From: Nitrospirota bacterium
Lineage (GTDB): Bacteria > Nitrospirota > Nitrospiria > Nitrospirales > Nitrospiraceae
Assembly: GCA_004296885.1 (NCBI GenBank)
Contig: SCVN01000023.1
Location: forward strand, 434,001 to 498,000
Reading direction: 5' to 3'
DNA: 64,000 nucleotides
In this document: positions 24,581 to 54,118 of the stretch, one piece after another
How the letters are laid out: each line of letters starts with the position of its first letter
Position numbering within the stretch: the first letter of the stretch is position 1
Made by a program: the position numbers and the translations under genes
The notes under the pieces: model-generated
The model's input: the letters and a program-made list of their open reading frames with translations, nothing else
Told to the model about the DNA's origin: nothing
The model's database searches: none

Positions 24581-26503
24581 ATGCGACGGATAGTGACCTG
24601 GCTCAGCAACCTTCCCATTGAACGAAAGCTGCTGCTCACTTCGGTGATTCCGGTCCTGGCGATCGTCTTACTGAGCGCGATCACCTATCGCAGCGTGCAG
24701 ACATTTTCGGAGGACGAAGAACAACTCAACAATATCTACCTCGCCCAGCGGAAAGGGGCCGAGTACCTGCGTCTCGCCCTCGACTTGCAATCAGGATTCA
24801 GGGGCTATGTCCTGACCCAGCAGGAAAGCTTCCTCATTCCCTTTCGGCAGGCCGAAGACCACGTACTGGAAGCGGGCGACTCTCTGCTCGCGATGGTCAG
24901 CGGTCGTGCCCCTCAGCGTCAGGCCATCCTCAAGGTCCAGCAGTTGGTCAAACGGCACATTGCCGAGAAGAACCAGCTCATCGACGCCGTGAAAGCGGGG
25001 CATCTCACGGAAGCGATGCAATACATCGAAGAAGGCCGGGGGCGCATGCTCATCATTCGGGAACAGATGGACCAGTTCGAGCGGCTCGAACAGCAGGCAT
25101 TGAGCGAAGCATTTGCCAATATCGCTCGAGATCGTTCGTTAATGATATCCGTGATCCTGGGTGGAGGGCTCCTGGCGCTTGCGCTGATGCTGGCGGCATT
25201 GCACCTGATCGCCCGCTCGATCACGGCGCCCCTCGTCGGTCTGGCCAAGGCCATGGGAACCGCCACCGGAGGGGCCATCCCCTTCGTGCCGATCCTCGAC
25301 CGGAAAGACGAAATCGGCGCCTTGACCAATGTGATGAGCGCGATGAGCGCGCAGGTCCGAGACCGTATCGCGCAAGTGGAAAAGTCGGAGGCCGAACTCC
25401 GCACCCTCAACCAGGATCTCGCCGCCTCGGAGTCCAAGTATCGCAGCATCGTAGATCACGCTCCCTTTGGGATCTTCAGAACGGAAGGCATGGCGCTGGT
25501 CTACAGCAACCGCTATAATCGCATCCTCGCCGGACTGAATCCGGACGAAGAAGGCGATCCGGAAGCCATCCGACAATCGATCCATCCGGAGGAACGCGAG
25601 CGGGTCCTGTCCGAGTACGCGCAGGCGGTTCGGGAGAACCGGCCCTACGAAACCGTCTTTCGGTTCCTGCACAAGGACGGGACCATCACGAAAGTCTTGA
25701 GCCGGCGCATTCCCATCAAAGACGACGCCGGCCGGACCGTCATGTACCAAGGATTCAACATCGACATCACGGCGCTGGAGCAGATGCAGGCACGCCTCAG
25801 CCGGGCCGAACGCCTGGCGACGCTCGGCCAAATGGCGGCCGGTATCGCGCACGAGATCCGCAATCCCCTGGTCGGAATCGGGTCCACCGCCTCGGTGCTG
25901 CTCGAAGACGCCGAGCCGACGGACCCCCGGCGTCCGGATCTTGAAACCATTCTGAAAGAAACCCGCCGACTCGACCGGATCGTGAATCAGATCGTCGACT
26001 ACGCCCGTCCCCGGACGCTGGCGCCGATCCTGTTCGCCATGGAGGAGCTGGTGCGGGAGACCCTGGCCGTTCTGGGAGAGCCGCTCGCGAAGAAACAGAT
26101 CCGCGTCGAAGGCCCCCACCAGCCCCATCTGCCCCCGATCCAGGCCGACCGGGACCAACTCAAACAGGTGCTGCTCAACATTGTCCAGAACGCGGTCGAG
26201 GCGATGCCCAATGGCGGCGTTCTCCGGATTTCTGCCTTCGAGTTCATGCGCGATCAGGAACCGGGCATGACGCTGACGTTCACCGACAACGGGGCCGGCA
26301 TCACCCAGGCCGATTTGCCGCATGTCTTCGAGCCCTTTTTCACCATCGGCAAGCATCGCGGCACGGGGCTCGGCTTGGCCATCTGCCGCAACATTGTGGA
26401 CGCTCATCAAGGCGAGATCCGGCTGGAGAGCCAGCCGGGACGGGGCACAACCGTGGCCCTGTGGCTCCCGCTGCGGCAACCCTCGATCGTGTCCGGAGGC
26501 TAA
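24581..26503 (+). CDS. CHASE3-PAS sensor histidine kinase
   Basis: 640 residues. Transmembrane helix at about 17-37, a CHASE3-type periplasmic helical domain (GAEYLRLALDLQSGFRGYVLTQQESFL), a second helix near 190-210, HAMP, a short coiled coil, a PAS domain (about 285-395) and a HisKA with H424 in AAGIAHEIRNPLVGIG, then HATPase_c (NIVQNAVEAM, DNGAGI, GTGLGLAICRNI). It autophosphorylates and should pass phosphate to the NtrC-type regulator 2 bases downstream. The extracellular signal is unknown. Confidence 0.9.
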   Translation: MRRIVTWLSNLPIERKLLLTSVIPVLAIVLLSAITYRSVQTFSEDEEQLNNIYLAQRKGAEYLRLALDLQSGFRGYVLTQQESFLIPFRQAEDHVLEAGDSLLAMVSGRAPQRQAILKVQQLVKRHIAEKNQLIDAVKAGHLTEAMQYIEEGRGRMLIIREQMDQFERLEQQALSEAFANIARDRSLMISVILGGGLLALALMLAALHLIARSITAPLVGLAKAMGTATGGAIPFVPILDRKDEIGALTNVMSAMSAQVRDRIAQVEKSEAELRTLNQDLAASESKYRSIVDHAPFGIFRTEGMALVYSNRYNRILAGLNPDEEGDPEAIRQSIHPEERERVLSEYAQAVRENRPYETVFRFLHKDGTITKVLSRRIPIKDDAGRTVMYQGFNIDITALEQMQARLSRAERLATLGQMAAGIAHEIRNPLVGIGSTASVLLEDAEPTDPRRPDLETILKETRRLDRIVNQIVDYARPRTLAPILFAMEELVRETLAVLGEPLAKKQIRVEGPHQPHLPPIQADRDQLKQVLLNIVQNAVEAMPNGGVLRISAFEFMRDQEPGMTLTFTDNGAGITQADLPHVFEPFFTIGKHRGTGLGLAICRNIVDAHQGEIRLESQPGRGTTVALWLPLRQPSIVSGG

Positions 26504-26505
26504 CC

Positions 26506-27894
26506 ATGCGCGCGACCATTTTCGTGACCGACGATGAGCCCGCCATCCGCTCGGCCATCGGCAAACGACTCAGCCGCCAGCAACACCAGGTCCGCACCTT
26601 CGAGTCGGGCGAAGCGCTCGTGGACGCGCTCGACACCGAGCCCCCCGACCTGGTCCTGCTCGACCTGAAGATGCCCGGCATGACCGGGCTTGAGACGCTC
26701 AAGGTGCTCCGCCAAAAGTCCCCGCAAGCGCTGGTGATCATCCTGACCGCCTTTGGGACCGTGCAGGATGCGGTGGCGGCCATGAAACTCGGCGCCTACG
26801 ACTTTTTGATCAAGACCGTCGACCTGGAGGGCATGGACTCGGTCCTCGAGCGGGCGTTGGAACTCCTGACGCTCCGGCGTCGCGTCCTCTTCGAGATGGA
26901 GCATGCAGGCAGCCAGTACACCCTGGAAAACTTGGTGGCGCACAGTTCGGCCATGCAGCATCTGGTGACGCAGTTGCGCGACGTGGTACAGAACCCGAAA
27001 GCCACGGTCCTGCTCCAGGGTGAAACCGGGACGGGCAAGGAGTTTATCGCGCGGGTCCTGCACCACAATAGCAGCCGCGCCTCGGCGCCCTTCATCGGAG
27101 TCAATTGCACGGCGATCCCCCGGGACCTGTTCGAGAGCGAACTCTTCGGCTACGAACGGGGCGCGTTCACCGGAGCCGGCCAGCGCAAGCTGGGCCTGCT
27201 GGAACGGGCCGAAGGCGGCACCATGTTCCTGGACGAGATCGGAGATCTCGACCCCGCCATGCAGGCCAAGCTGCTCCGCGTCCTCCAGGAACGATCCTTC
27301 AGGCGGCTGGGCGGGGCCGACGATATCGCCGTGGACTTTCGGCTCATCGCCGCCACCAACCGCGACCTCAAGAAGGAAGTCGCCCGCGGCACCTTCCGGG
27401 AGGACCTTTTCTTCCGTGTGAACATGGTGCTGTTCGAACTGCCGCCGCTGAGGAAACGTTCGGAGGACATCCTTCCCCTATGCCTGCGCACCCTGATGCG
27501 CGCCAACAAGGAGTTCAATAAGGAGGTCCTGGACATCGAGCCGGATGCCCGCGTCATGCTGGAACGGTATGCTTTTCCGGGCAATGTCCGGGAACTGCAG
27601 AACATCATCGAGCGGGCCCTGATATTCTGCCACGGCAAGACACTCACCGCCGCCGCCCTCCCGCAAGAGCTGCGGCAGACTTCCCCGCCGGTCACCACGA
27701 CGGCGACCACGGGCGCCGGACAGGTCCTGCGCGTCGAGATGCCGCTGGGGCAGATGTCCCTCGCCGAGGTCGAGGACGCTATCATCCGGGAAGTCCTTCG
27801 CCTCGCCGACTACAACAAAAGCCTCGCCGCCAAACACCTGGGGCTCACGCGATTTGCGCTCGACCGCCGATTGAAGAAGGGGCAAGAGGAATAG
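26506..27894 (+). CDS. Sigma54-dependent response regulator (NtrC family)
   Basis: 462 residues: receiver domain with acid pair near residues 9-11 and phospho-acceptor D53 (LVLLDLKMPG), AAA+ activator domain with Walker A GETGTGKE and the sigma54-contacting GAFTGA at about 219-224, Walker B GGTMFLDEIGDL, and a C-terminal Fis-type HTH (DYNKSLAAKHLGLTRFALDRRL). Start ATG 26506 lies directly after the kinase stop. It activates sigma54 promoters from upstream sites; a candidate target is the GCAC(T/A)GTGC element found at four loci in this window. Confidence 0.92.
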   Translation: MRATIFVTDDEPAIRSAIGKRLSRQQHQVRTFESGEALVDALDTEPPDLVLLDLKMPGMTGLETLKVLRQKSPQALVIILTAFGTVQDAVAAMKLGAYDFLIKTVDLEGMDSVLERALELLTLRRRVLFEMEHAGSQYTLENLVAHSSAMQHLVTQLRDVVQNPKATVLLQGETGTGKEFIARVLHHNSSRASAPFIGVNCTAIPRDLFESELFGYERGAFTGAGQRKLGLLERAEGGTMFLDEIGDLDPAMQAKLLRVLQERSFRRLGGADDIAVDFRLIAATNRDLKKEVARGTFREDLFFRVNMVLFELPPLRKRSEDILPLCLRTLMRANKEFNKEVLDIEPDARVMLERYAFPGNVRELQNIIERALIFCHGKTLTAAALPQELRQTSPPVTTTATTGAGQVLRVEMPLGQMSLAEVEDAIIREVLRLADYNKSLAAKHLGLTRFALDRRLKKGQEE

Positions 27895-34204: not shown

Positions 34205-34220
34205 AGCAATGCGCATGCCA
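34205..34220 (-). promoter_or_regulatory. Near-consensus sigma54 promoter
   Basis: Minus strand TGGCATG-CGCA-TTGCT matches the sigma54 consensus TGGCACG-N4-TTGCW with one mismatch and exact spacing. The start site would be near 34194, about 42 bases before ATG 34152. The enhancer-like element D lies about 62 to 80 bases upstream. Confidence 0.7.
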
Positions 34221-34280: not shown

Positions 34281-34300
34281 GCACAGGCCGCACTGTGCAC
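34281..34300 (-). promoter_or_regulatory. Enhancer-like element, copy D (inverted)
   Basis: Plus-strand GCACAGGCC then GCACTGTGC. Read on the plus strand it matches the minus-strand form of copy C, so this copy is inverted relative to A, B and C, as enhancer sites can be. Confidence 0.5.
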
Positions 34301-42026: not shown

Positions 42027-42042
42027 TGCAACCTCCATGCCT
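42027..42042 (-). promoter_or_regulatory. Sigma54 promoter of the FNT-efflux operon
   Basis: Minus strand AGGCATG-GAGG-TTGCA, with the -24 GG, ATG for ACG, and complete TTGCA at -12 at exact spacing. The start site would be near 42016, about 48 bases before ATG 41968. Confidence 0.7.
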
Positions 42043-42138: not shown

Positions 42139-42380
42139 AACCGCGCACCCGGCGATCTGCCCTAGAAAAACCGCGACGCATCGCGAGCCGCATGGCGCGG
42201 CGCCGGCCGGCGATCGGTGGCGCTCGATCGGAAAATCGGATATGATCGCGCCCGTGCCGGAGAGACATCGCTTCATTGCCGGACATCACAGGGCGTGGGA
42301 ACAGCTTCCATTGCCAGAGACCGGCATGGAATGCCGGCCCCGCGCCCATGTCGCCGATTCATGGCTCACCCGGTGCTGAC

Positions 42381-43943
42381 ATGACGTGGTTCCGCCATCT
42401 CACGATCGGCCAGAAGCTCCTCGTATCCTTCGGTATCTTGCTCCTGCTGCTCGGCCTCAGCCTCTCGGCCATTCTCTTTTACCTGGCCCGCATCAACAGC
42501 TACGTGGAACGTCACGATCGCATCACCGTGCCGGCCATCGTCTCGGCGACGGACATGCGGCGGCGGATTTATGAGATGACCCTGCTGCTGCACTCCCTCA
42601 GGGAGAACCGCTCGGACGTCGATCGCCGGAACACACTCGACGGCATGCAACGACTGGAGTCGGATACGCGAAGCGCGTTAGCGTTCTACCGTACGACCCA
42701 CACAGCCAGAACACATCCCGTGTTATTCCGCATGCTGACCCAACATGGCCAAGCGGCCATGGCCGATCTCGAGGATCATGCCTTGGATGAGACGGCCAAA
42801 CTCCTGGAAGCCTTCGGAACCAGCTGGAGGGCGATGACTGCCCATCAGGGAAAGAGACAGGAGGCGGAAGCCGATCTCGCGTTCAACGAGGCGGTCGCGC
42901 TCACCCGTCAACTGACGGATAAAATAAACACGCTCATTGACTTGCACAGCAAAATCACAACCGAGATGAAGTCAGAGGGCGACTCCCTCTTTCGTCAATC
43001 TGCGTTGGTCATTCTTGCCCTGGTCGTCATGCTCGGCCTCTTGATTGTGGCCACCTATGTCATCGTGAACACCCAGATTGCTAGGCCGCTGAAGAGCCTC
43101 GCAAAAACCGCCGATCATGTGGCCCGCCACGAGCTGTCGGCCGGCTTCGATCCCTGGCCGGCGCAGGATGAAGTCGGCAACCTCGCCCGGTCGCTGGGCA
43201 CCATGCTGGAGAACCTGCGGGACCGCACCCGCGCGCTGGAACGCAAAACGCGGGAACTCGAGGGGTTCACCTATTCCGTCGCGCACGATTTAAAAGGCCC
43301 GCTTCGGGAGATCGAAGGGTTTTCGTCGTTGATTCAGCAAAAATTTCCTGAGACCCTAAACCAGACAACCCGCCATTACGTTTCCAAGATCAGGACATCG
43401 GCCCTACGGCTCACTGCATTGATCAACGATCTGCTTCGATATTCACGGCTGGAGCAACAAGCCCTGCCCATGTCGCAGGTCAACGTGAGGACACTCATCG
43501 ATCACATCCTGTCGGACCGCCTCCCCGCTGCGCCGCAGGCATCTCCTCTCATCCACGTCGCTCTCCCGTTCACCCACGTGCGGGGCGAACCGACCAGCAT
43601 TCAGCAGGCTCTCGTCAATCTTGTCGGCAACGCCCTGAAATTCTCCCGCGACGCCGACCCGCCCGAGATCAGCATCGGCGGCGCAGTCCGCGCCCAGGAA
43701 CGCATCATCTGGGTCCGAGACAACGGAATCGGCTTCGACCCCAAAGACGCCGACCGGATCTTCGGCCTGTTCGAGCGCCTGCACGGCCAGGAGGAGCATG
43801 AAGGGACGGGGGTGGGCCTGGCGATCGTGAAGCTGGTCATGGAGAAACACGGCGGCCGAGTCTGGGCCGAATCCTGTCCGGGCAAAGGCAGCACATTCTT
43901 TCTGGCGTTTCCGGACGCCCCGTCCGACGGAGGCACCGCATGA
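42381..43943 (+). CDS. Membrane sensor histidine kinase
   Basis: 520 residues. Helix 1 at about 10-32 (LLVSFGILLLLLGLSLSAILF), a helical periplasmic domain of the four-helix-bundle type, helix 2 near 210-232, HAMP, then HisKA with H302 in FTYSVAHDLKGPLREIEGF (phytochrome-type H box) and HATPase_c (NLVGNALKFS, DNGIGFD, GTGVGLAIVKLV). It overlaps the NtrC gene by 4 bases (ATGA) and so is its cognate kinase. ATG 42381 is chosen for the start next to helix 1. Confidence 0.9.
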   Translation: MTWFRHLTIGQKLLVSFGILLLLLGLSLSAILFYLARINSYVERHDRITVPAIVSATDMRRRIYEMTLLLHSLRENRSDVDRRNTLDGMQRLESDTRSALAFYRTTHTARTHPVLFRMLTQHGQAAMADLEDHALDETAKLLEAFGTSWRAMTAHQGKRQEAEADLAFNEAVALTRQLTDKINTLIDLHSKITTEMKSEGDSLFRQSALVILALVVMLGLLIVATYVIVNTQIARPLKSLAKTADHVARHELSAGFDPWPAQDEVGNLARSLGTMLENLRDRTRALERKTRELEGFTYSVAHDLKGPLREIEGFSSLIQQKFPETLNQTTRHYVSKIRTSALRLTALINDLLRYSRLEQQALPMSQVNVRTLIDHILSDRLPAAPQASPLIHVALPFTHVRGEPTSIQQALVNLVGNALKFSRDADPPEISIGGAVRAQERIIWVRDNGIGFDPKDADRIFGLFERLHGQEEHEGTGVGLAIVKLVMEKHGGRVWAESCPGKGSTFFLAFPDAPSDGGTA

Positions 43944-45322
43944 CGATACCGTCCCCCATGCCGCTGCGCATCCTGGTCATGGACGACGAGGAACTGATCC
44001 GTCTCGTGCTGAAGGAGTCGCTGCAGGCGGAAGGCTGCGCCGTCACCACGGTCACCGATGGACGAGCCGGGCTCGACGCGCTCCAAGCGTCGCCGTTCGA
44101 CTGCGTCATCACCGACCTGCGCATGCCGAGAGTCACCGGCTGGGAAGTCCTGCGCTGGGTACGGGAACATCAGCCGGACGTGGATGTGATCGTGCTCACG
44201 GGGCACGGCGAAGTGCCGTCGGCCGTGGAGGCGATCAAAGCAGGCGCCTGCGATTATGTGGTCAAGGAAACCCCGTTTAACGAGGGCCCCGTGAAGGCCG
44301 CGCTGGCCAAATTGCTCGCCGTACGAACGTTACGACAGGAGAATCTGGCGCTCAAGCTCGCGGCCCGCATGCCGGGCCTCGAGCCAATGGTTCCGGGAAT
44401 CAGTCCCGCCTGGAAGAAACTGATGGAGACCGTGGAGAAGGTTGCGCCGTCCAATGCGCCGGTCTTGATCCAGGGCGAAACCGGCTCCGGCAAAGAGGTC
44501 GTCGCCGGAACCCTCCACCAGCTCAGCCCCCGGCGCGAGGCGCCGTTTCTAGCGGTCAACTGCGGGGCGGTCAGCGGTCAGTTGCTCGAAAGCGAATTGT
44601 TCGGGCACGAGAAGGGGGCCTTCACCGGCGCCGCGACGGCCAAGAGCGGCTTGTTCGCCGCCGCCGAAGGGGGCACGCTGTTCCTGGACGAAATCAGCGA
44701 AATGAGCGGCCCCATGCAGGTCAGTTTGCTGCGCGTCCTGGACCGGGGCGAATACCGCCAGGTCGGCGGCACGCGGACATTGCGCGCAAACGTGCGCGTC
44801 GTGGCTGCCAGCAATCGCAGTCTTCAGGACATGGTGCAGAGCGGTCGATTCCGCGACGATCTGCTCTACCGCATCAACACCGTCACGATCTCCGTGCCGC
44901 CCCTGCGGGAACGTCCCGAAGACCTGCCGCGATTGGCGGAGCACTTTTTGGGTCAGTTGCACGTTCCGGGCAAGGTCAAGCGAACCGTCTCCTCCGAAGC
45001 CCTGGCCCGGTTGTCCGCCTATCCCTGGCCCGGCAATGTACGCGAGCTGCGCAACGTGATCGAACGCCTCATCCTGCTGTCCGCTCCCGGCCGTGTCGAA
45101 CCCATCGGCACCGAGGAATTGGCGTCGGTACTGCAGCCCATGCCTGCAAGTCCCGGCTCCGCCGAGCACGAGACGCACGGATCCCTGGAAAGCGCCGAAC
45201 AAGCTCACATCCTGCGCGTCCTACAGGCGCAAGAGGGGAACAAGACTCAGGCGGCCCGGGTACTCCGCATTGACTACAAGACCCTCCTCAGTAAGCTGCG
45301 CAAGTATGGGCTGGAATCATAA
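43940..45322 (+). CDS. Sigma54-dependent response regulator (NtrC family)
   Basis: 460 residues. Receiver with DD at 15-16 and phospho-acceptor D59 (CVITDLRMPR), AAA+ domain with GETGSGKE, GAFTGA (EKGAFTGAATAKSG), GGTLFLDEISEM, and a Fis-type HTH at the end (NKTQAARVLRIDYKTLLSKLRK). It lies directly before the promoter region at 45420-45557, whose paired palindromes are its most likely binding sites, and beside the FNT operon, which carries the other element. Confidence 0.92.
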   Translation: MTIPSPMPLRILVMDDEELIRLVLKESLQAEGCAVTTVTDGRAGLDALQASPFDCVITDLRMPRVTGWEVLRWVREHQPDVDVIVLTGHGEVPSAVEAIKAGACDYVVKETPFNEGPVKAALAKLLAVRTLRQENLALKLAARMPGLEPMVPGISPAWKKLMETVEKVAPSNAPVLIQGETGSGKEVVAGTLHQLSPRREAPFLAVNCGAVSGQLLESELFGHEKGAFTGAATAKSGLFAAAEGGTLFLDEISEMSGPMQVSLLRVLDRGEYRQVGGTRTLRANVRVVAASNRSLQDMVQSGRFRDDLLYRINTVTISVPPLRERPEDLPRLAEHFLGQLHVPGKVKRTVSSEALARLSAYPWPGNVRELRNVIERLILLSAPGRVEPIGTEELASVLQPMPASPGSAEHETHGSLESAEQAHILRVLQAQEGNKTQAARVLRIDYKTLLSKLRKYGLES

Positions 45323-45419: not shown

Positions 45420-45456
45420 CTGGAAAAATTCCACAGACTCCCTGGAAGATTTCCAG
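45420..45456 (+). promoter_or_regulatory. Paired palindromes CTGGAA-N3-TTCCA(G/C), candidate NtrC-type enhancer sites
   Basis: Site 1 (45420-45434) is CTGGAA-AAA-TTCCAC; site 2 (45442-45456) is CTGGAA-GAT-TTCCAG, a perfect palindrome. Centres are 22 bases apart, about two helical turns, and lie about 95 to 115 bases upstream of the -24 box, the classic layout for a dimer-pair of an enhancer-binding protein. Confidence 0.7.
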
Positions 45457-45541
45457 AATCGGCGCTTCTGTGTTGCATCTCTTGACGAAACGATTCTGCC
45501 TTATCGTTGAGAAATTGCCGCCTTGGGTTCTCCGTTATTCA

Positions 45542-45557
45542 AGGCACGCCCCTTGCT
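45542..45557 (+). promoter_or_regulatory. Sigma54 promoter
   Basis: AGGCACG-CCCC-TTGCT: complete GGCACG and TTGC cores with exact 4-base spacing, only the first T of the consensus differing. The start site would be near 45568, about 50 bases before ATG 45620. Confidence 0.8.
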
Positions 45558-45619: not shown

Positions 45620-46054
45620 ATGCACCACCCTACCCGCGCAGGCGTTGCAGGCAAGCCTCTTTTGATCATCGGAGATGATCCGGACTACTGTGAACTGTTC
45701 CACGAAGCTGCTCGGCGACATGATGACGCAAATGAAACGAACATCGTGCATGGCATAGAATCCGCGTTGACGTTTCTAAAAGCCGCTCAAACCTCGCCCC
45801 ATCTCAGACTGCCGCATCTGATTCTTCTGAATCTGAAACAGGAAAACAGCCGTAAGTTTATACGTCGATTCCGCGCAGATCCCGGCCTGGCTTCCATTCC
45901 GGTGGTCATGATGGTCTCCTCTGATGATCCGAAAGACATCAACACCTGTTATGCAAGCGGAGCAAACGGATACGTCGTCGCACCGGACACACTCGAAGGA
46001 CTTGTCGTCCTGATCGCGAATCTTTACCGCCACGGGCTCGGCCAGAAACAATAA
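45620..46054 (+). CDS. Degenerate (pseudo-)receiver protein, Rcp1-like
   Basis: 144 residues. The Rcp1-type receiver fold is clear (LLIIGDDPDYCELF ... IRRFRADPGLASIPVVMMVSSDDPKDI ... CYASGANGYVV), and the acidic pair D19-D20 is present. The phospho-acceptor position is N71 (LILLNLKQE) and the conserved Lys is A121 (YVVAPDT), so phosphorylation in the usual way is not expected. AAGGAGG ribosome site. Driven by a strong sigma54 promoter. It may act as a constitutive or ligand-gated protein partner. Confidence 0.85.
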   Translation: MHHPTRAGVAGKPLLIIGDDPDYCELFHEAARRHDDANETNIVHGIESALTFLKAAQTSPHLRLPHLILLNLKQENSRKFIRRFRADPGLASIPVVMMVSSDDPKDINTCYASGANGYVVAPDTLEGLVVLIANLYRHGLGQKQ

Positions 46055-46099: not shown

Positions 46100-46372
46100 A
46101 TGAAGATGCTTGTGCTCGTTTTCCGCCAATCCCTTGAAAAAGACCTGCTGCAATTACTGAATGAGCTCGACGTGCAAAGCTTCGCTCACGCTCCAACAGT
46201 CAACGGTACGGGCAAGACCGAACCGACGATGCACTCGTTCAGCTGGTCGGAACATAGCGGCACGATCCTTGCGGCTCTTCGCTATCCCCTGCGAATGCCT
46301 GATATAACTCCCTCTTCGCACGATCCAATTGGCATGAATTGTGCTTGGCTAATGAACCCATATGGACTATAA
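46100..46372 (+). CDS. PII-like small protein, C-terminally truncated
   Basis: 90 residues. MKMLVLVFRQSLEKDLLQLL ... VNGTGKTEPTMHSFSW...TILAALR resembles the small PII-like proteins (ferredoxin-like fold) that accompany RND pump operons, in which the chain continues with a final helix and strand. Here the sequence after ILAALR (YPLRMPDITPSSHDP) no longer fits, so the 3' part is probably replaced or lost. ATG 46100 lacks a strong ribosome site. It sits just before the RND gene. Confidence 0.5.
   Translation: MKMLVLVFRQSLEKDLLQLLNELDVQSFAHAPTVNGTGKTEPTMHSFSWSEHSGTILAALRYPLRMPDITPSSHDPIGMNCAWLMNPYGL
46330..46345 (+). promoter_or_regulatory. Possible sigma54 promoter for the RND operon
   Basis: TGGCATG-AATT-GTGCT: exact -24/-12 spacing, with two mismatches (T for C, G for T). 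About 90 bases before the GTG of the RND gene. Confidence 0.4.
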
Positions 46373-46432: not shown

Positions 46433-49400
46433 GTGGTCCGAGCCTCGCTAAAAAATCCCTATGCCGTGGTGGCGATCAGCCTGATCATCGTCATCCTGGG
46501 CGTGGTGTCCTATCAGAAGATGGTCGTGGACATCTTCCCGGAGATCAATCTGCCCGTCGTCGCGGTGGTCACCTTCTACAAAGGCATGGGCCCCTCCGAA
46601 ATCGAGGGGGCGATCACCCTTCGCCTGGAGCAGCTCTATCTGCAGGCTTCCTACATCGAACACATCGAGTCCCGTTCGCTGCCGGGCGTCAGCCTCATCA
46701 AAATCTACTTCCAGCCCTCATACGACGTCAACGCGGCGGTGGCCGAGATCACCAGCCTCACGTACAGCACCCTCCGCTACCTGCCACAAGGCGTCTTTCC
46801 GCCGATCATCGTCAAATTCGGCGCGACCAGCCTGCCCATCGCCGACCTGACCGTGAGCAGCGACCAGATGACCGAGAAGGAAGTCCGCGACCTGGCCTAC
46901 TTCACCGTGCGGCCCCAGTTCGGCAACGTCCCCGGCATCTCCCTGCCTCCGACCTTCGGCGGCACGGTGCGGCAGATCACGGTCTTTCTGGATCGGGAAA
47001 AAATGCTGGCCCGGGGCATCTCGTCCGGCGACATCGTGGAGGCGGTGAACACCCAAAGCCTCCTGCTTCCGGCCGGCGACGTGAAGATCGGCGACTTCGA
47101 CTACAACCTCTACACCAACAGCATGATCCGGGTCGTGGACAACATGAACGACATCCCGATCAAGATCGTGAACGGGACGCCGATCGCGCTGCGGGACGTC
47201 GGCAAGGCCGTTGACTCGACCATGATCCAGACGAACGTGGTGCGCATCGACGGGCGGCGCGCGGTCTACATTCCGGTGATGAAACAGGCCGGCGCCAACA
47301 CCCTGGCGGTCGTCGACGGGGTCAAGGCCGCCCTGCCCAAATTGATCGGCCTTCCCGCCAACCTGGACGTGAAACTGATCTTCGACCAGTCCCTCTACAT
47401 CCGGCAATCCATCAAGACGCTCGAGGACGAAGGGCTGATGGGCGGCGGCCTGGCCTGCCTGATGGTCCTCCTGTTCCTGGGCAGCCTCCGGTACACCGTC
47501 ATCATCGCGCTGGCCATTCCCCTCTCGGTCACTGCCGCCTTCATCGGGCTCTATTTCACCGGCCATACCATCAACATCATGACGCTCGGCGGCCTGGCCC
47601 TGGCGGTCGGCCGGCTCGTGGACGACGCCATCGTCGTCGTGGAGAACACGCACCGGCATCTGGACATGGGCAAATCCGCCGCCCAGGCGGCCGGCGACGC
47701 GACGAGCGAGTTCGCTCTCCCCATGCTGGTGATCACCATTACCGTATTCCTGGTGTTTTTGCCGATCGCCTTCTTCACGGGCATCATCAAGTTCCTGTTC
47801 GTCCCCCTGGCCCTGGCCGTGGGCTACGCGATGATGGCCTCCTATGTGGGCGCCCTGAGCGTGGCGCCGGTCTGTCTGGCCTATTTGCTCAAGGGCCGGC
47901 ATCACGGCCAACCGGAACAACCGGCGTCCGGATTGACGGGCCTGTGGCACAGACTGAACCTGTTCGATCCGTTCGTGGCCCGTTACGTCATGGTGCTGCG
48001 CTGGTGCCTGCACCACAAGGCATCGGTGATTGTCGCCGTGGCGGCCATCTTCGCCGGCTCGGTCATGATGGCCCCGCGCCTCTCCACCGAATTTTTCCCC
48101 AAGGTGGATGCGGGCCAGTTCATCCTGAACGTCGCCGCGCCGGAAGGCACCAGGGTGGAGAAGACCGAAGCGATCGTGGCCAAGATCGAAGATCTGATCC
48201 GCCAGGTGATCCCGCCGGCGGAGCTGGACCAGATCGTCGCCAACATCGGCGTGCCGCAAGGCTGGATGGTGCTCTATACCCCGGTCGTCGGCCCCCACCA
48301 ATCCTTCATGCTGGTCAGCCTCAAGCGGGAACATACGATACGGACCGACGACGTGGTGGACCGACTCAGGGAACGGCTGGCGCAGGAACTGCCCGGCTTG
48401 AAATTTTCCTTCCAGACCGGCGGCATCGTCAGCGACGTCCTGAACTACGGGTTGCCGGCTCCCATCGACATCAAGGTCAGCGGCCCGAACCTCAACGAAG
48501 TGGCGGAGACCGCCTCGCGCATTCGGGAGGTCGTCGTCAAGGTTCCGGGCACGGTGGACGTGGCCGTGCGGCAGGGCATGGCCTATCCCGAACTGCACCT
48601 GACCGTGGACCGGTCCAAGTCGGCCTACCAAGGCCTCAACGAACAGCGGATCGTCACGGACGTGATCACCGGGCTCAGCTCCAACGTCCAGCTCAACCCG
48701 GGTTACTGGATCGACCCCAAGTCCAACAACGCCTACTTCGTCGTGACCCAATACCCGGAACAGTTCCTGGTCAAATTCGAAGACTTCCTGAATATTCCCC
48801 TCGTGGGCACCGATATCGAGCACTCGGGGACCTCCAGCGCATCAATGTCCCGCGGCAGTTCCCTGGCTTTGCAGCAGACGCCCTTCCCCGAACGGGCCGC
48901 CATGCCGCAAGCCAATGGCAACGCCAGCGCCCCGATCCTCTTGCGCGACCTCATCGAGGTCACGAGGAAGAACGGCCCTGAGACAGTGGACCATTACAAT
49001 CTCCAGCGCACGGTGGATGTGCTGGTAGACGTGCCGGGCAACGACCTGGGGAAGGTCGCGGGGTTGATCGAGCAGGAACTGGCGAAACTGGACCTGCCCA
49101 AAGATGTCGTGGTCTCGTTCAAGGGCCAGGTGGACAGCATGCGACAGGCGCTGATCGGATTCGGCGGAGGCCTACCGCTGGCCGTGGTTCTGATCTACCT
49201 CGTGATGGTCGGACTGTTCCGGTCCTACCTGGACCCCCTCGTGATCATGTTCGCCGTTCCGCTGGGCCTCATCGGGGTGATCTGGATGTTGCTGCTCACG
49301 CACACGTCGCTCAACGTGGAGTCGCTCATCGGCACCCTCATGATGATCGGGATCGTGGTGTCCAACAGCGTCCTGCTGGTGGATTTCGCCAACCAGCGCC

Positions 49401-49687
49401 TGCGCGAGGGGGCTCCACTGGAAGAGGCGGTGGTGGACGCGGGCCGCCTTCGCATCCGGCCGATTCTCATGACCTCGCTGGCCACGATCATCGGCCTGGC
49501 CCCGATGGCGCTGGGCATCGGCGAGGGCAGCGAGGCGAACATGCCGCTGGCGCGGGCGGTGATCGGAGGCCTCTCCGTGTCCACCGTGATGACCCTGCTC
49601 TTTATTCCGGTCCTGCACATGCTCGCCCGGCAGCGGTCTGCCGCCCATTCGCCCACCGGGGAAACAGCTGATGAAACAGCAGCCTGA
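46433..49687 (+). CDS. RND efflux pump inner-membrane transporter (HAE/AcrB-like)
   Basis: 1084 residues with the RND layout: helix 1 (YAVVAISLIIVILGVVSY), a large periplasmic loop, six helices, a second loop and five helices. The proton-relay aspartates are in GRLVDDAIVVVENTHRHLD. Substrates are probably hydrophobic compounds; the class is HAE rather than heavy-metal type because of the DD pair. GTG 46433 follows AGGAG. Followed by an adaptor (17-base overlap) and three TolC-type channels. Confidence 0.9.
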   Translation: MVRASLKNPYAVVAISLIIVILGVVSYQKMVVDIFPEINLPVVAVVTFYKGMGPSEIEGAITLRLEQLYLQASYIEHIESRSLPGVSLIKIYFQPSYDVNAAVAEITSLTYSTLRYLPQGVFPPIIVKFGATSLPIADLTVSSDQMTEKEVRDLAYFTVRPQFGNVPGISLPPTFGGTVRQITVFLDREKMLARGISSGDIVEAVNTQSLLLPAGDVKIGDFDYNLYTNSMIRVVDNMNDIPIKIVNGTPIALRDVGKAVDSTMIQTNVVRIDGRRAVYIPVMKQAGANTLAVVDGVKAALPKLIGLPANLDVKLIFDQSLYIRQSIKTLEDEGLMGGGLACLMVLLFLGSLRYTVIIALAIPLSVTAAFIGLYFTGHTINIMTLGGLALAVGRLVDDAIVVVENTHRHLDMGKSAAQAAGDATSEFALPMLVITITVFLVFLPIAFFTGIIKFLFVPLALAVGYAMMASYVGALSVAPVCLAYLLKGRHHGQPEQPASGLTGLWHRLNLFDPFVARYVMVLRWCLHHKASVIVAVAAIFAGSVMMAPRLSTEFFPKVDAGQFILNVAAPEGTRVEKTEAIVAKIEDLIRQVIPPAELDQIVANIGVPQGWMVLYTPVVGPHQSFMLVSLKREHTIRTDDVVDRLRERLAQELPGLKFSFQTGGIVSDVLNYGLPAPIDIKVSGPNLNEVAETASRIREVVVKVPGTVDVAVRQGMAYPELHLTVDRSKSAYQGLNEQRIVTDVITGLSSNVQLNPGYWIDPKSNNAYFVVTQYPEQFLVKFEDFLNIPLVGTDIEHSGTSSASMSRGSSLALQQTPFPERAAMPQANGNASAPILLRDLIEVTRKNGPETVDHYNLQRTVDVLVDVPGNDLGKVAGLIEQELAKLDLPKDVVVSFKGQVDSMRQALIGFGGGLPLAVVLIYLVMVGLFRSYLDPLVIMFAVPLGLIGVIWMLLLTHTSLNVESLIGTLMMIGIVVSNSVLLVDFANQRLREGAPLEEAVVDAGRLRIRPILMTSLATIIGLAPMALGIGEGSEANMPLARAVIGGLSVSTVMTLLFIPVLHMLARQRSAAHSPTGETADETAA

Positions 49688-50954
49688 AGAACAGTATACT
49701 GACGCACAACCGGGTAACGGGCATCCCCATGCCGCAAGGGAGTTCCACGTGACGGAATCGGATCTGCCTGGCATGCCTCCCGAACCTCCCCCCGACCCAG
49801 GACCGGGCATCAGCCACCTCAAGCTCACGCTGATTGCGGCGGCAATCCTGTTCCTCGTCGTCGCCACGCTGGTGCTCCTTCAGGACCAGCCCCAGACCGC
49901 CTCCGCCCCTTCAGCGGAACCGGAAGCCGTCCAGACTCCGGCCGGCACCCGCCTGGTACAGGTCATCAAACCCCAACGGCGTGATCTGACCAGGACGCTC
50001 AGCCTCCCGGCCAACATCGCTCCCTGGTATCGGGCCACGCTCTATGCCAAAGTCTCCGGCTACTTGAAGTGGATCGGGTTCGACAAGGGCGACGAGGTCA
50101 AGAAAGGCCAGGTGCTGGCCGTGATCGACGCGCCGGAAGTCCAGGACCAGTATGAGCAGGCGGAGTCGGACTACGCCATCAAAAAACTGACCTATGAACG
50201 GCTCCTGAGCGTCTGGAAAGAAAATCCCGACGTGATCGCCAAGCAGGACGTGGACGTCGCCGCGGCGGCGGCGGAAGGGGCCAAACAACAGATGGAACGG
50301 CGGCGCACCTTCCTGGAGTACACCAAGATCACGGCGCCCTTTGCCGGCACCATCACGGCCCGCTTCGCCGATCCCGGCGCCATGATCCAGTCCGCGATCA
50401 GTTCGTCCACCCAGGCCAACCCCCTTTTCACGCTCATGGACCTGGATACCGTCCGGGTCTACGTCAGCGTCCCACAAGAAAGCGCCCTGCTCGCCACGGC
50501 CGGCGTGCCCGCACTGCTGACCATCAAGGAAATGCCGGGGGTGCAGATCAAGGGCCAAATCACACGTACGACCGAATCCCTGGACCCGGCGACCCGCACC
50601 CTCTTGGTCGAGATCGACTTGCCCAACAAAGACCACCGCCTGCAACCCGGCACATTCGTCAACGCCACGCTTGCGCTCGAACAACACCCGAACGTGCTCA
50701 CCGTTCCGCCGGCTGCCATCGAACCGCCCTCGAACGGAAAGCCCAAGACCGTGGTCCTCGTGGAGAACGGCAAGGTCCGTCGCGTCCCGATCACCACCGG
50801 CATCGACGACGGGAGCTGGGTCGAGGTGGTGGACGGACTGACCGGCAACGAAGACGTCATCGTGGTCGGCAAAAACAACCTTGCCGAAGGACAGGCCGTG
50901 ACGGCCTCCCCCTACGCGCTTCCGTCCGGCACGCCGGCCAAACAGAAATACTAG
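49671..50954 (+). CDS. RND periplasmic adaptor (membrane fusion protein)
   Basis: 427 residues. Cytoplasmic N-terminal stretch of about 45 residues, one helix (LTLIAAAILFLVVATLVLL), then the adaptor domain with lipoyl half motifs (TLYAKVSGYLKWIGFDKGDEVKKGQVLAVID and ITAPFAGTITARFADPGAMIQ), a coiled-coil hairpin and beta barrel (LDTVRVYVSVPQE). It is anchored in the inner membrane and connects the pump to an outer-membrane channel. Confidence 0.9.
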   Translation: MKQQPEEQYTDAQPGNGHPHAAREFHVTESDLPGMPPEPPPDPGPGISHLKLTLIAAAILFLVVATLVLLQDQPQTASAPSAEPEAVQTPAGTRLVQVIKPQRRDLTRTLSLPANIAPWYRATLYAKVSGYLKWIGFDKGDEVKKGQVLAVIDAPEVQDQYEQAESDYAIKKLTYERLLSVWKENPDVIAKQDVDVAAAAAEGAKQQMERRRTFLEYTKITAPFAGTITARFADPGAMIQSAISSSTQANPLFTLMDLDTVRVYVSVPQESALLATAGVPALLTIKEMPGVQIKGQITRTTESLDPATRTLLVEIDLPNKDHRLQPGTFVNATLALEQHPNVLTVPPAAIEPPSNGKPKTVVLVENGKVRRVPITTGIDDGSWVEVVDGLTGNEDVIVVGKNNLAEGQAVTASPYALPSGTPAKQKY

Positions 50955-50961
50955 ACCAACG

Positions 50962-51038
50962 CGGAATGATGAACGATGAATGATGAGCTCAGAAAATCCG
51001 TCATTCATCATTCCGCATTCCGCATTCATCATTCATCG
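50962..51038 (+). repeat. Inverted repeat of GAATGATGA units before first TolC gene
   Basis: Left arm 50962-50986 (CGGAATGATGAACGATGAAT and four more bases) and right arm 51001-51038 (TCATTCATCATTCCGCATTC and continuing) are made of complementary GAATGATGA/TCATTC units. It overlaps the possible start of the TolC gene. Confidence 0.65.
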
Positions 51039-52550
51039 TTGCCTCGGCAGAAAAATCCGGGAGCCATGGCGGGCTTCGCCGCCTGCTGCTTGCTGCTCTT
51101 CGCGGTCAACCCGCCGACCGCCGCGCCGGCCCAAGCAGACAACAAGGCGAGCTCGGCTGCCGCTCCGGCCGGGAAAGCTTCGAGTTCTACGCCGGCTCCA
51201 TCTCCCGCGCACCTTCTCAGTCTGACCGAGGCCATTCGGGCCGGCCTGGCACAACACCCGTCGATCGAGCGCGCCCAGGCCACGTCAAAGAGCGCGGCCG
51301 CCGAAACCAAACAGGATCAGGGACGGCTGTATCCCTGGCTCGAAGCCTCCGCGGCGGGCGGCACCGGCTCGATTCGTGTGTTGAGCAGCGACGGCGCCAA
51401 CATCCATGCAACCGGCGACTTGGCCTCCAGTTTCCGCAATCGGAGCGGATTTCACACCTACGGAGGCGGGCGCGGCTTTGCCCTGGCCGGCGCCCTGCCC
51501 AAACACAACATGAACATGACGACGGGCGGGTTGCTGTTGAACCAACTGATCACGGATTTTGGGACCAGCGCTCACCGCATCCTGGCCAGCCAGGCGACGG
51601 AAGCGGCGACGGAAAAAGAAATTCTGACGAGCAAGGCCCTGGTCATCCTGAACATCCAACAGGCCTACCTCACCTGCCTCATGCAGCAACGTTTCGTCGA
51701 GATCGCCGCCGAAAACCTAGCCACACGCAAGCTCATTCGGGACCAAGTCCAGAGCCTGTACAAGCATCAACTGAAGGCCAAGCTGGATCTGGACCTCATG
51801 ACGGTCGAAGTCGAGAATGCAACCCTCGCCTTGATCAAAGCCAGGAACGACCTGGCACAAGCCTTTGCCTCCCTGAACAACGCCATGGGGGTCGAAGGGC
51901 CTGATCGCTATGCTCTGGAACCGGTGGCCATCGACAAGGGGGCGGCGCCGGCAATGGCCGAACTGGTGGAGGAAGGTCTCAAACAGCGGCCCGAACTCCT
52001 GGGCAGCCAGGATCGGCTTCAGGCCAGTCAGGAATTTCTCCAGGCGGTCAAGGCGCTCCATTTTGGCGATGTGTCGGCGGTCGGCACCCTCGGGATCACG
52101 AAATATGGGGATATCCATGATGCCGGTATTCCCTCCGACGGAGTGGCGCCCTTGTGGGGCTTCGGGGTCTCGGCCCGCCTGCCGCTGTTCACCGGCTTCA
52201 AGATCCAAAACCAGATCGTCGAGGCGGGACACCACAAGGGTGAGGCGGAACAAGAGCTGCAGAACCTCGCGAACGAAGTGACGCTCCAGGTCGTCAAGGC
52301 ATCCCTGGGCCAGATCGCAAGCGCCGAGCAGATCACCCTGGAGCAGGAACGCACGGCCTTTGCCAAGGAGGCGGTGAACCTGGCGCAAGCCCGGTACAAA
52401 CTCGGGCTCAGTTCCATCGTGGAGGTTGTCCGGGCGACGACCGCGCTGTTCGACGCGGAATCCAGGCTCGCCGAAGCCCAGTATGTCTACAAGAAAAGCC
52501 AAGCCTTGGTGGCCTACGCCGCCGGGCAGGAATACCGGAAGTATCCGTGA
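50976..52550 (+). CDS. TolC-family outer-membrane channel (1 of 3)
   Basis: 524 residues as written. The signal region is MAGFAACCLLLFAVNPPTAAPAQA; the true start is uncertain because ATG 50976 lies within a repeat, and ATG 51066, directly before the hydrophobic part, may be used. The OEP repeats start LLSLTEAIRAGLAQHPSIERAQAT and contain LVILNIQQAYLTCLMQQR and a second-half equivalent. First of three consecutive channel genes after the RND pump and adaptor. Confidence 0.85.
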   Translation: MNDELRKSVIHHSAFRIHHSSLPRQKNPGAMAGFAACCLLLFAVNPPTAAPAQADNKASSAAAPAGKASSSTPAPSPAHLLSLTEAIRAGLAQHPSIERAQATSKSAAAETKQDQGRLYPWLEASAAGGTGSIRVLSSDGANIHATGDLASSFRNRSGFHTYGGGRGFALAGALPKHNMNMTTGGLLLNQLITDFGTSAHRILASQATEAATEKEILTSKALVILNIQQAYLTCLMQQRFVEIAAENLATRKLIRDQVQSLYKHQLKAKLDLDLMTVEVENATLALIKARNDLAQAFASLNNAMGVEGPDRYALEPVAIDKGAAPAMAELVEEGLKQRPELLGSQDRLQASQEFLQAVKALHFGDVSAVGTLGITKYGDIHDAGIPSDGVAPLWGFGVSARLPLFTGFKIQNQIVEAGHHKGEAEQELQNLANEVTLQVVKASLGQIASAEQITLEQERTAFAKEAVNLAQARYKLGLSSIVEVVRATTALFDAESRLAEAQYVYKKSQALVAYAAGQEYRKYP

Positions 52551-52711: not shown

Positions 52712-54118
52712 ATGAACCGATCACATGGCATACGAAACAGCATCCTGGCGATCGGGCTGCTGATCTGCCTCTGGTCCGGCACAACGACCCTCGCCGCCGA
52801 CACGCCCTCTCCCGCACCGACCGTCACGCAAACTCCGGTTCCGCCCGGTTCACCAAGGTTGACCTGGGATGAGGCCATCAAAAGCGGCGTCGCCCAGCAT
52901 CCGCTGATCCAGGCGGCGCACCATGGGGTGCTGGGATCAGAAGCGGTCGGCAAGCAAATCGCCTCGGTGAACTATCCGCAAGTCTCCGGCATGTTGTCCA
53001 ACTCGCTCGGCAACACCCGCGTCCTGTCCAATTTCGGCATTTCCGGATCGCTGCCTAAGCCCACGAACTACATGACCGACCCGGGGGCTCGCGTGGATCT
53101 GCTGATCACCGACTTCGGACGCACCGCCCACAAAATCCTGGCCAGCCAATCGCTCACGGCTTCGGCCGAGAAACAGGTCCTGACGGTCAAGGCCCTCGTC
53201 ATCCTGAATGTCGAACAGGCCTATCTGGCCTGCCTGAAACAACAGCGGCTGGTGACCGTCACACGCGACGTATTGGCGGAGCGGCGGCTGATCCGGGAGC
53301 AGGCCGAGTCTCTCTTCCACCATCAAGTGCGATCCAAGCTGGATCTCGACTTTGCATCAGTCGAAGCGGCCAAGGCCGAGTTGGATTTCATCAAGGCGCA
53401 GAACGACCTCCAAGCCGCGTTCGCCGCCTTGAACCAGGCGATGGGCCGGCAGGAGCCGGTCCAGTATGTGCTGGAAGAAGTCCGCCCATCGCTATCGTCC
53501 GCGCCGCCGCTCGAACCCCTGTTCAAAGAAGCACTCGACCGGCGTCCGGAACTGCTGGGCAGCAAGGACCGAGTCCAGGCGGCGGAGGAGGCGCTGAAAG
53601 CGGCCCACGCATTGAACTATGGAAGCATTTCGGCCATCGGTGCAGCCGGGTATGCCTGGTGGGCCCGTCAGGAAGTGGTCAATGCCAAGGGCAACCCGAA
53701 TAACCCAGGCGCACAGCTCGGCTGGTGGGGCGCCGGTTTTTCCTCCACAACCCCGCTGTTCACCGGCTTCCGCATTGAGGCCGAGGTCGAACAGGCCGAG
53801 GCGAATAAGGGAATCGCCCGGGCCACGACGCGGGTGATCGCCAACGACGTGGTGCTTGAAGTGGCCAAAGCCTATCTGAACCGGCTCACAGCCGAGCAAC
53901 AGATCGCCGTGGCGCAGGACCGGGTCGCTCATGCACGTGAAGCGCTGACGCTGGCGCGCGAACGGTACAAGGCCGGCCTGGCCTCCATCTTGGACGTGAC
54001 GACCGCCGCCGCCGACCTTTTGACTGCGGAAACCGGCTTGGCCGAGGCCCAATACGGCTACCTGGCCGGCAATTCCGCTTTGGCCTATGCAACTGGCGTG
54101 GAATACGGGAAGTACTGA
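52712..54118 (+). CDS. TolC-family outer-membrane channel (2 of 3)
   Basis: 468 residues. Signal peptide MNRSHGIRNSILAIGLLICL...TLAA, then OEP repeat LTWDEAIKSGVAQHPLIQAAHHG, LVILNVEQAYLACLKQQRLVTV and a second repeat with FSSTTPLFTGFRIEAEVEQAE. ATG 52712 is preceded by AGGGAG. It is similar in motif order to the genes on both sides; the set looks like a tandem duplication. Confidence 0.88.
   Translation: MNRSHGIRNSILAIGLLICLWSGTTTLAADTPSPAPTVTQTPVPPGSPRLTWDEAIKSGVAQHPLIQAAHHGVLGSEAVGKQIASVNYPQVSGMLSNSLGNTRVLSNFGISGSLPKPTNYMTDPGARVDLLITDFGRTAHKILASQSLTASAEKQVLTVKALVILNVEQAYLACLKQQRLVTVTRDVLAERRLIREQAESLFHHQVRSKLDLDFASVEAAKAELDFIKAQNDLQAAFAALNQAMGRQEPVQYVLEEVRPSLSSAPPLEPLFKEALDRRPELLGSKDRVQAAEEALKAAHALNYGSISAIGAAGYAWWARQEVVNAKGNPNNPGAQLGWWGAGFSSTTPLFTGFRIEAEVEQAEANKGIARATTRVIANDVVLEVAKAYLNRLTAEQQIAVAQDRVAHAREALTLARERYKAGLASILDVTTAAADLLTAETGLAEAQYGYLAGNSALAYATGVEYGKY

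Follow-up and report, generated by a model that had tools for sequence, protein, structure and literature searches.

Paired palindromes behind an NtrC-type regulator gene as the probable enhancer of a sigma-54-dependent RND efflux operon in Nitrospiraceae

What might two adjacent palindromes be doing in the gap between an NtrC-type regulator gene and the operon behind it, and which protein would dock there? The question arises from a 64,000-nucleotide stretch of a Nitrospirota genome (assembly GCA_004296885.1, contig SCVN01000023.1, positions 434,001 to 498,000), which we call the window. A sequence search recovered both palindromes where an earlier note on this DNA had placed them, with start points 22 bp apart: a left dyad, CTGGAAAAATTCCAC (45420-45434), with one mismatch to the 15-mer consensus CTGGAA-N3-TTCCAG, and a right dyad, CTGGAAGATTTCCAG (45442-45456), which matches it perfectly. 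Both are strandless features, called from the sequence match together with a conserved footprint in relatives. Downstream on the plus strand lies the -24/-12 element AGGCACGCCCCTTGCT (45542-45557), the top-scoring such match of the window, in which AGGCACG-N4-TTGCT carries the GG and GC at the correct spacing. The dyads had been described as lying about 100 bases upstream of the promoter; the upstream position stands, and 86 bp separate the right dyad from the -24 element. The reading that we favor, at a probability of about 0.85, is that the dyads and the -24/-12 element serve as enhancer and promoter for a sigma-54-dependent efflux operon under the control of the adjacent kinase/NtrC-type pair.

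We used pattern searches and family searches across the genome. The 13-bp core pair, TGGAA-N3-TTCCA/N9/TGGAA-N3-TTCCA, has a single match in the 3.26-Mb genome, which answers the search for such pairs that the earlier note had proposed, and with up to two mismatches it turns up in just 5 of the 175 Nitrospiraceae genomes. Lone CTGGAA-N3-TTCCAG sites are common: 27 occur in the genome at one mismatch or fewer, and the 25 places other than the two dyads all lie within open frames, with no -24/-12 element nearby. A single site alone is no evidence. Being neither intergenic nor close to such a promoter, these 25 places were rejected as further regulon members in this genome. One exact copy of the family consensus half, TGGAGAAATTCCA, lies within a Fur-family gene.

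The pair is conserved well beyond this genome. In 45 of 46 Nitrospiraceae receiver promoters (the receiver being the first gene of the downstream operon), the best 13-mer pair had a shuffle-based p-value of 1% or less; these p-values are optimistic because the scoring matrix was written after the sites were seen. The agreement in spacing, the control DNA and the consensus scans suffer less from this circularity. The sample also includes many closely related genomes. When the register was left free between 13 and 79 bp, all 46 loci chose 20-23 bp. No pair reached a score of 36 in 1.07 Mb of control DNA around other sigma-54 regulators, as against 42 of the 46 promoters, and the window holds no further pair at this score besides 45420-45456. 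The gap between the right dyad and the -24 element is usually 97-119 bp in relatives, somewhat longer than in the window. The family consensus, TGGAGAAATTCCA...TGGAATTTCTCCA, is one 13-mer in two inverted copies, and the dyads of the window are its most symmetric copies in the family. Scanning the 175 genomes with this consensus returned chiefly the receiver-operon promoter, the rest being mostly one repeated coding-type sequence, besides a few scattered hits; the recurrent match, TGGAAAAACTCCTCAAGCTGGACGAACTGCTCCA, seen in several genomes away from the operon, was discarded. The upstream dyads are thus tandem and conserved in both register and position; this comparison shows that the paired palindromes are genuine and have been kept in evolution as two predicted docking sites.

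The promoter is conserved as well. Orthologous promoters carry a counterpart -24/-12 element of the CGGCAC-N5-CTGCT type, with a weak best -24 match (AGGAACG or TGGAATG type) in G045, G030, G032, G022, G024 and G025, and RpoN itself is encoded in the genome (PF04552, 199.5 bits, C19:18870). The idea of a sigma-54 promoter preceded by paired enhancer sites at this place, already voiced in the earlier note, is supported.

The operon behind the promoter, all on the plus strand, begins with a stand-alone Rcp1/CheY-like receiver of 144 residues (45620-46054), identified by alignment and codons at a Pfam score below the curated cut-off. Its phospho-acceptor Asp is replaced by Asn (AAT, 45830-45832) and its conserved Lys by Ala (GCA, 45980-45982), with a two-residue deletion behind the phospho-acceptor position. 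The aligned relatives retain both residues; the window version lacks the features of a phosphorylatable receiver and by its sequence is a pseudo-receiver. The next gene (46100-46372) encodes a PII-like PG0541-family transporter-associated protein (NCBIfam NF045581), whose homology is limited to approximately the first 60 residues; the C-terminal part has been replaced, and no other frame restores the rest. Both modulators seem to be decaying or functionally changed in this lineage, with the enhancer intact. They are followed by an RND efflux permease of type B (46433-49687; Pfam PF00873), a periplasmic adaptor or membrane fusion protein (49671-50954; NCBIfam TIGR01730, above cut-off), a TolC-family outer-membrane channel (50976-52550; TIGR01844, below cut-off, with homologues that come after the adaptor in relatives) and a second TolC-family channel (52712-54118), similar tandem TolC copies being present in G010. 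A -24/-12-like sequence, TGGCATGAATTGTGCT (46330-46345), lies directly ahead of the RND gene and is possibly a second promoter.

In nearly all genomes inspected, an RND permease follows the receiver gene, mostly with an adaptor and a TolC channel; G011 is the exception. Two RND subfamilies stand under the same promoter, type A in most genomes and type B in the window, G010 and G015, with identities of 79-93% within A, 66-78% within B and 53-61% between the two. The apparent pump exchange is seen across four loci: L259 (G050), where A is followed by B; L257 (G140), where an A fragment is followed by B; L268 (G010); and L169 (G015). Read without a tree, it looks as if pump B was first added behind A, which was later lost, with the enhancer constant.

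Upstream of the dyads, a membrane histidine kinase with HAMP, HisKA and HATPase domains (42381-43943, plus strand; Pfam) overlaps the regulator gene by 4 bases; its listed open reading frame starts at 42276, and the first good ATG is at 42381. In the relatives examined, the kinase orthologue adjoins the regulator. The NtrC-type sigma-54 enhancer-binding response regulator (43940-45322, plus strand; Pfam PF00072, PF00158, PF02954) contains a receiver, an AAA+ domain with GAFTGA and a Fis-type HTH (GNKTQAARVLRIDYKTLLSKLRKYG), the full domain set of such an activator. AtoC is its best NCBIfam model, at 400.6 bits against a cut-off of 714 for the equivalog NF008469, and the NtrC model TIGR01818 gives 376.8 bits against 558.6. 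By these cut-offs the protein is neither AtoC nor NtrC; it belongs to a separate orthologous group. Orthologues with 57-69% identity occur in 65 further Nitrospiraceae genomes of the 175, the next relatives being near 46%; none was found in the three other genomes of the window's genus examined. All aligned orthologues share the HTH core IDYKTLL-x-KL, which is in line with a shared DNA site. The sites CTGGAAGTAATCCAG, which lie within coding sequence in genes beside the regulator in other genomes (L057, L059, L063), were discarded.

Does the regulator travel with the operon? Among the 175 genomes, 57 have both the regulator and the receiver, 3 the receiver only, 9 the regulator only and 106 neither (Fisher p ~2e-32, not corrected for kinship). 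The genomes with a receiver and no detected regulator are G039, G044 and G094, two of which are very fragmented. The enhancer adjoins the regulator gene in the window's own genome (G000) and in G011, G015 and G019; in the latter three, the gene order matches that of the window: the receiver gene comes after the regulator, and the paired sites and a -24/-12 element lie between them. Most of the remaining genomes have the receiver gene away from the regulator, for example 33 kb away in G032, and the paired sites still stand ahead of the receiver-RND operon at more than 30 kb from the regulator (G032, G035, G037); therefore, it is the target operon that the enhancer accompanies, wherever the regulator gene lies. 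With no second such pair in the genome, the regulator probably serves only this receiver-RND operon. Taken together, the co-occurrence and the co-conservation support the neighbor relation foreseen in the earlier note, and the co-conserved enhancer is most probably the docking pair for the regulator encoded next door. Some rearranged copies were also seen. In G078 (L293) and G124 (L297) the enhancer pair is duplicated upstream of the receiver gene, with the copies 716 and 750 bp apart, and in G078 a short ORF that is BrnA-like by eye lies between them. A second, rearranged copy in G015 (L083/L170) consists of kinase, regulator and PII-like genes, an apparent RND remnant, paired sites, a -24/-12 element and the receiver gene.

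Could the palindromes be functionless products of chance or codon usage, CTG GAA NNN TTC CAG being made of common codons? The frequency of single sites in coding sequence, including the 25 other places in open frames, fits such an origin, but the intergenic position, the pairing, the fixed register and the absence of such pairs from the control DNA do not, and the conservation ahead of the same gene across genera already refutes this barely credible explanation. A different regulator, either another sigma-54 activator or a repressor, might instead own the dyads as its operator, with the kinase-regulator pair acting elsewhere. Another activator could bind them, because the genome encodes 22 strong sigma-54-activator matches (plus 3 weak ones), and the 3 receiver-only and 9 regulator-only genomes also count against the favored reading. 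Against ownership by another regulator stand the strong co-occurrence of the regulator orthologues with the target operon, their adjacency in four genomes of different genera, and the lack of any alternative site pair for the regulator in the window or its own genome. A repressor site 86-119 bp upstream of a -24 element would also be in an unusual position, and we consider ownership by another regulator very unlikely.

The dyads lie directly behind the regulator gene, which lends itself to a feedback arrangement: the regulator would control its own kinase-regulator operon through them, or the receiver of the downstream operon would act back on the kinase. The first gene of that operon is indeed a receiver and, in relatives with the Asp and Lys, a plausible phosphate sink. 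However, there is no site pair by the kinase promoter, the -24/-12 element points to the downstream operon, and the window receiver is without both residues, so a phosphate-sink loop cannot work in the usual way here. The feedback circuit, which the earlier note had named as the alternative to a neighbor circuit, was not borne out: the kinase-regulator genes have no copy of the site nearby except the one facing the downstream operon, and the circuit therefore looks one-way. We regard feedback as unlikely.

Under the favored enhancer-promoter reading, the membrane kinase would sense an envelope or periplasmic signal and phosphorylate the NtrC-type regulator. Two regulator dimers would then bind the dyads at 45420-45456, presumably on the same face of the DNA and about two helical turns apart, and would assemble into an ATPase ring. 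Looping of the DNA would bring the ring to the sigma-54 RNA polymerase held at 45542-45557, the promoter would open, and the receiver (45620), PII-like, RND permease, adaptor and TolC genes would be transcribed. In relatives the receiver probably tunes the circuit, for instance as a rival acceptor of the phosphate that the kinase donates, and the window receiver may be a decayed or phosphorylation-independent version. The sites and their conservation, the order of the operon, the joint occurrence of regulator and target, RpoN and the loss of the Asp and Lys are observed, whereas regulator binding, activation, the role of the receiver, the signal and the substrate are inferred. A more specific extension, which we offer tentatively and hold to be rather doubtful, is that the leading gene of the operon serves specifically to modulate the activator and its kinase: as a phosphorylatable phosphate sink damping the switch in most Nitrospiraceae, as a phosphorylation-independent pseudo-receiver working by direct contact in the lineage of the window, with the pump exchanged behind an unchanged enhancer.

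The dyads are distinct from a second palindromic element, GCACTGTGC, which is the core of a longer dyad, roughly CGCAC-TGTGCGCC-NN-GTGCG by eye. The earlier note had assigned this GCAC element to the other four promoters; four copies are present in the window (29071, 34290, 36120 and 42119), but a good -24/-12 match is close to only two of them, those at 34290 (element at 34220, minus strand) and 42119 (element at 42042, minus strand). The -24/-12 element at 42042 stands before a formate/nitrite transporter gene. The natural candidate for the GCAC element is the second sigma-54 regulator in the window (26461-27894). Its recognition helix differs from that of the regulator next to the dyads (IDYKTLLSKL versus LTRFALDRRL for the window's two regulators), so two specificities are likely; the different DNA motifs and the different helices agree with the separate specificity proposed previously.

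How does the predicted switch relate to known systems? Tandem enhancers of the NtrC/glnA type consist of two dimer sites, dyads for Fis-type HTH domains, upstream of the -24/-12 element with room for looping. The locus shares this layout, with two predicted dimer sites, whereas its half-sites are TGGA/TCCA instead of GCAC/GTGC. Two-component control of RND pumps is otherwise exercised by OmpR-type regulators such as BaeR, CusR and AdeR. The combination of a membrane kinase and a response regulator with an RND-adaptor-TolC operon is common to those systems and this one; unlike them, the regulator here is a sigma-54 enhancer-binding protein predicted to act at a distance, and the operon begins with a stand-alone receiver. 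The closest match in enhancer architecture is AtoC at atoDAEB of Escherichia coli, where two inverted copies of one imperfect dyad stand in a 21-bp register at -184 to -165 and -163 to -144 from the transcription start site, far upstream of the sigma-54 promoter (PMC3118216). As with AtoSC, an NtrC-type two-component activator is encoded alongside its kinase, and the dyads are inverted in a comparable register (20-23 bp in the family), but the motif is TGGAGAAATTCCA here and GCTATGCAGAAATTTGCACA for AtoC, and the target is RND efflux instead of acetoacetate catabolism. Our literature search found no paper that describes this motif or regulon or that places RND pumps of Nitrospira under sigma-54, which does not prove that none exists. 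Four points go beyond the earlier note: that the target is an RND efflux operon, that the pair is conserved throughout the family, that its copies are inverted, and that the receiver has degenerated.

The locus adds a well-built case to a familiar class of bacterial gene switches, and it occurs throughout the family. For a two-component system encoded in at least 66 of the 175 Nitrospiraceae genomes, a group in which little regulation has been studied experimentally, it supplies a DNA motif ready for use and a regulon that is likely to be a single operon. It also ties a predicted sigma-54 switch to an RND efflux operon, in which the cassette of enhancer, promoter and receiver appears to remain unchanged as one pump replaces another behind it and the kinase-regulator pair relocates.
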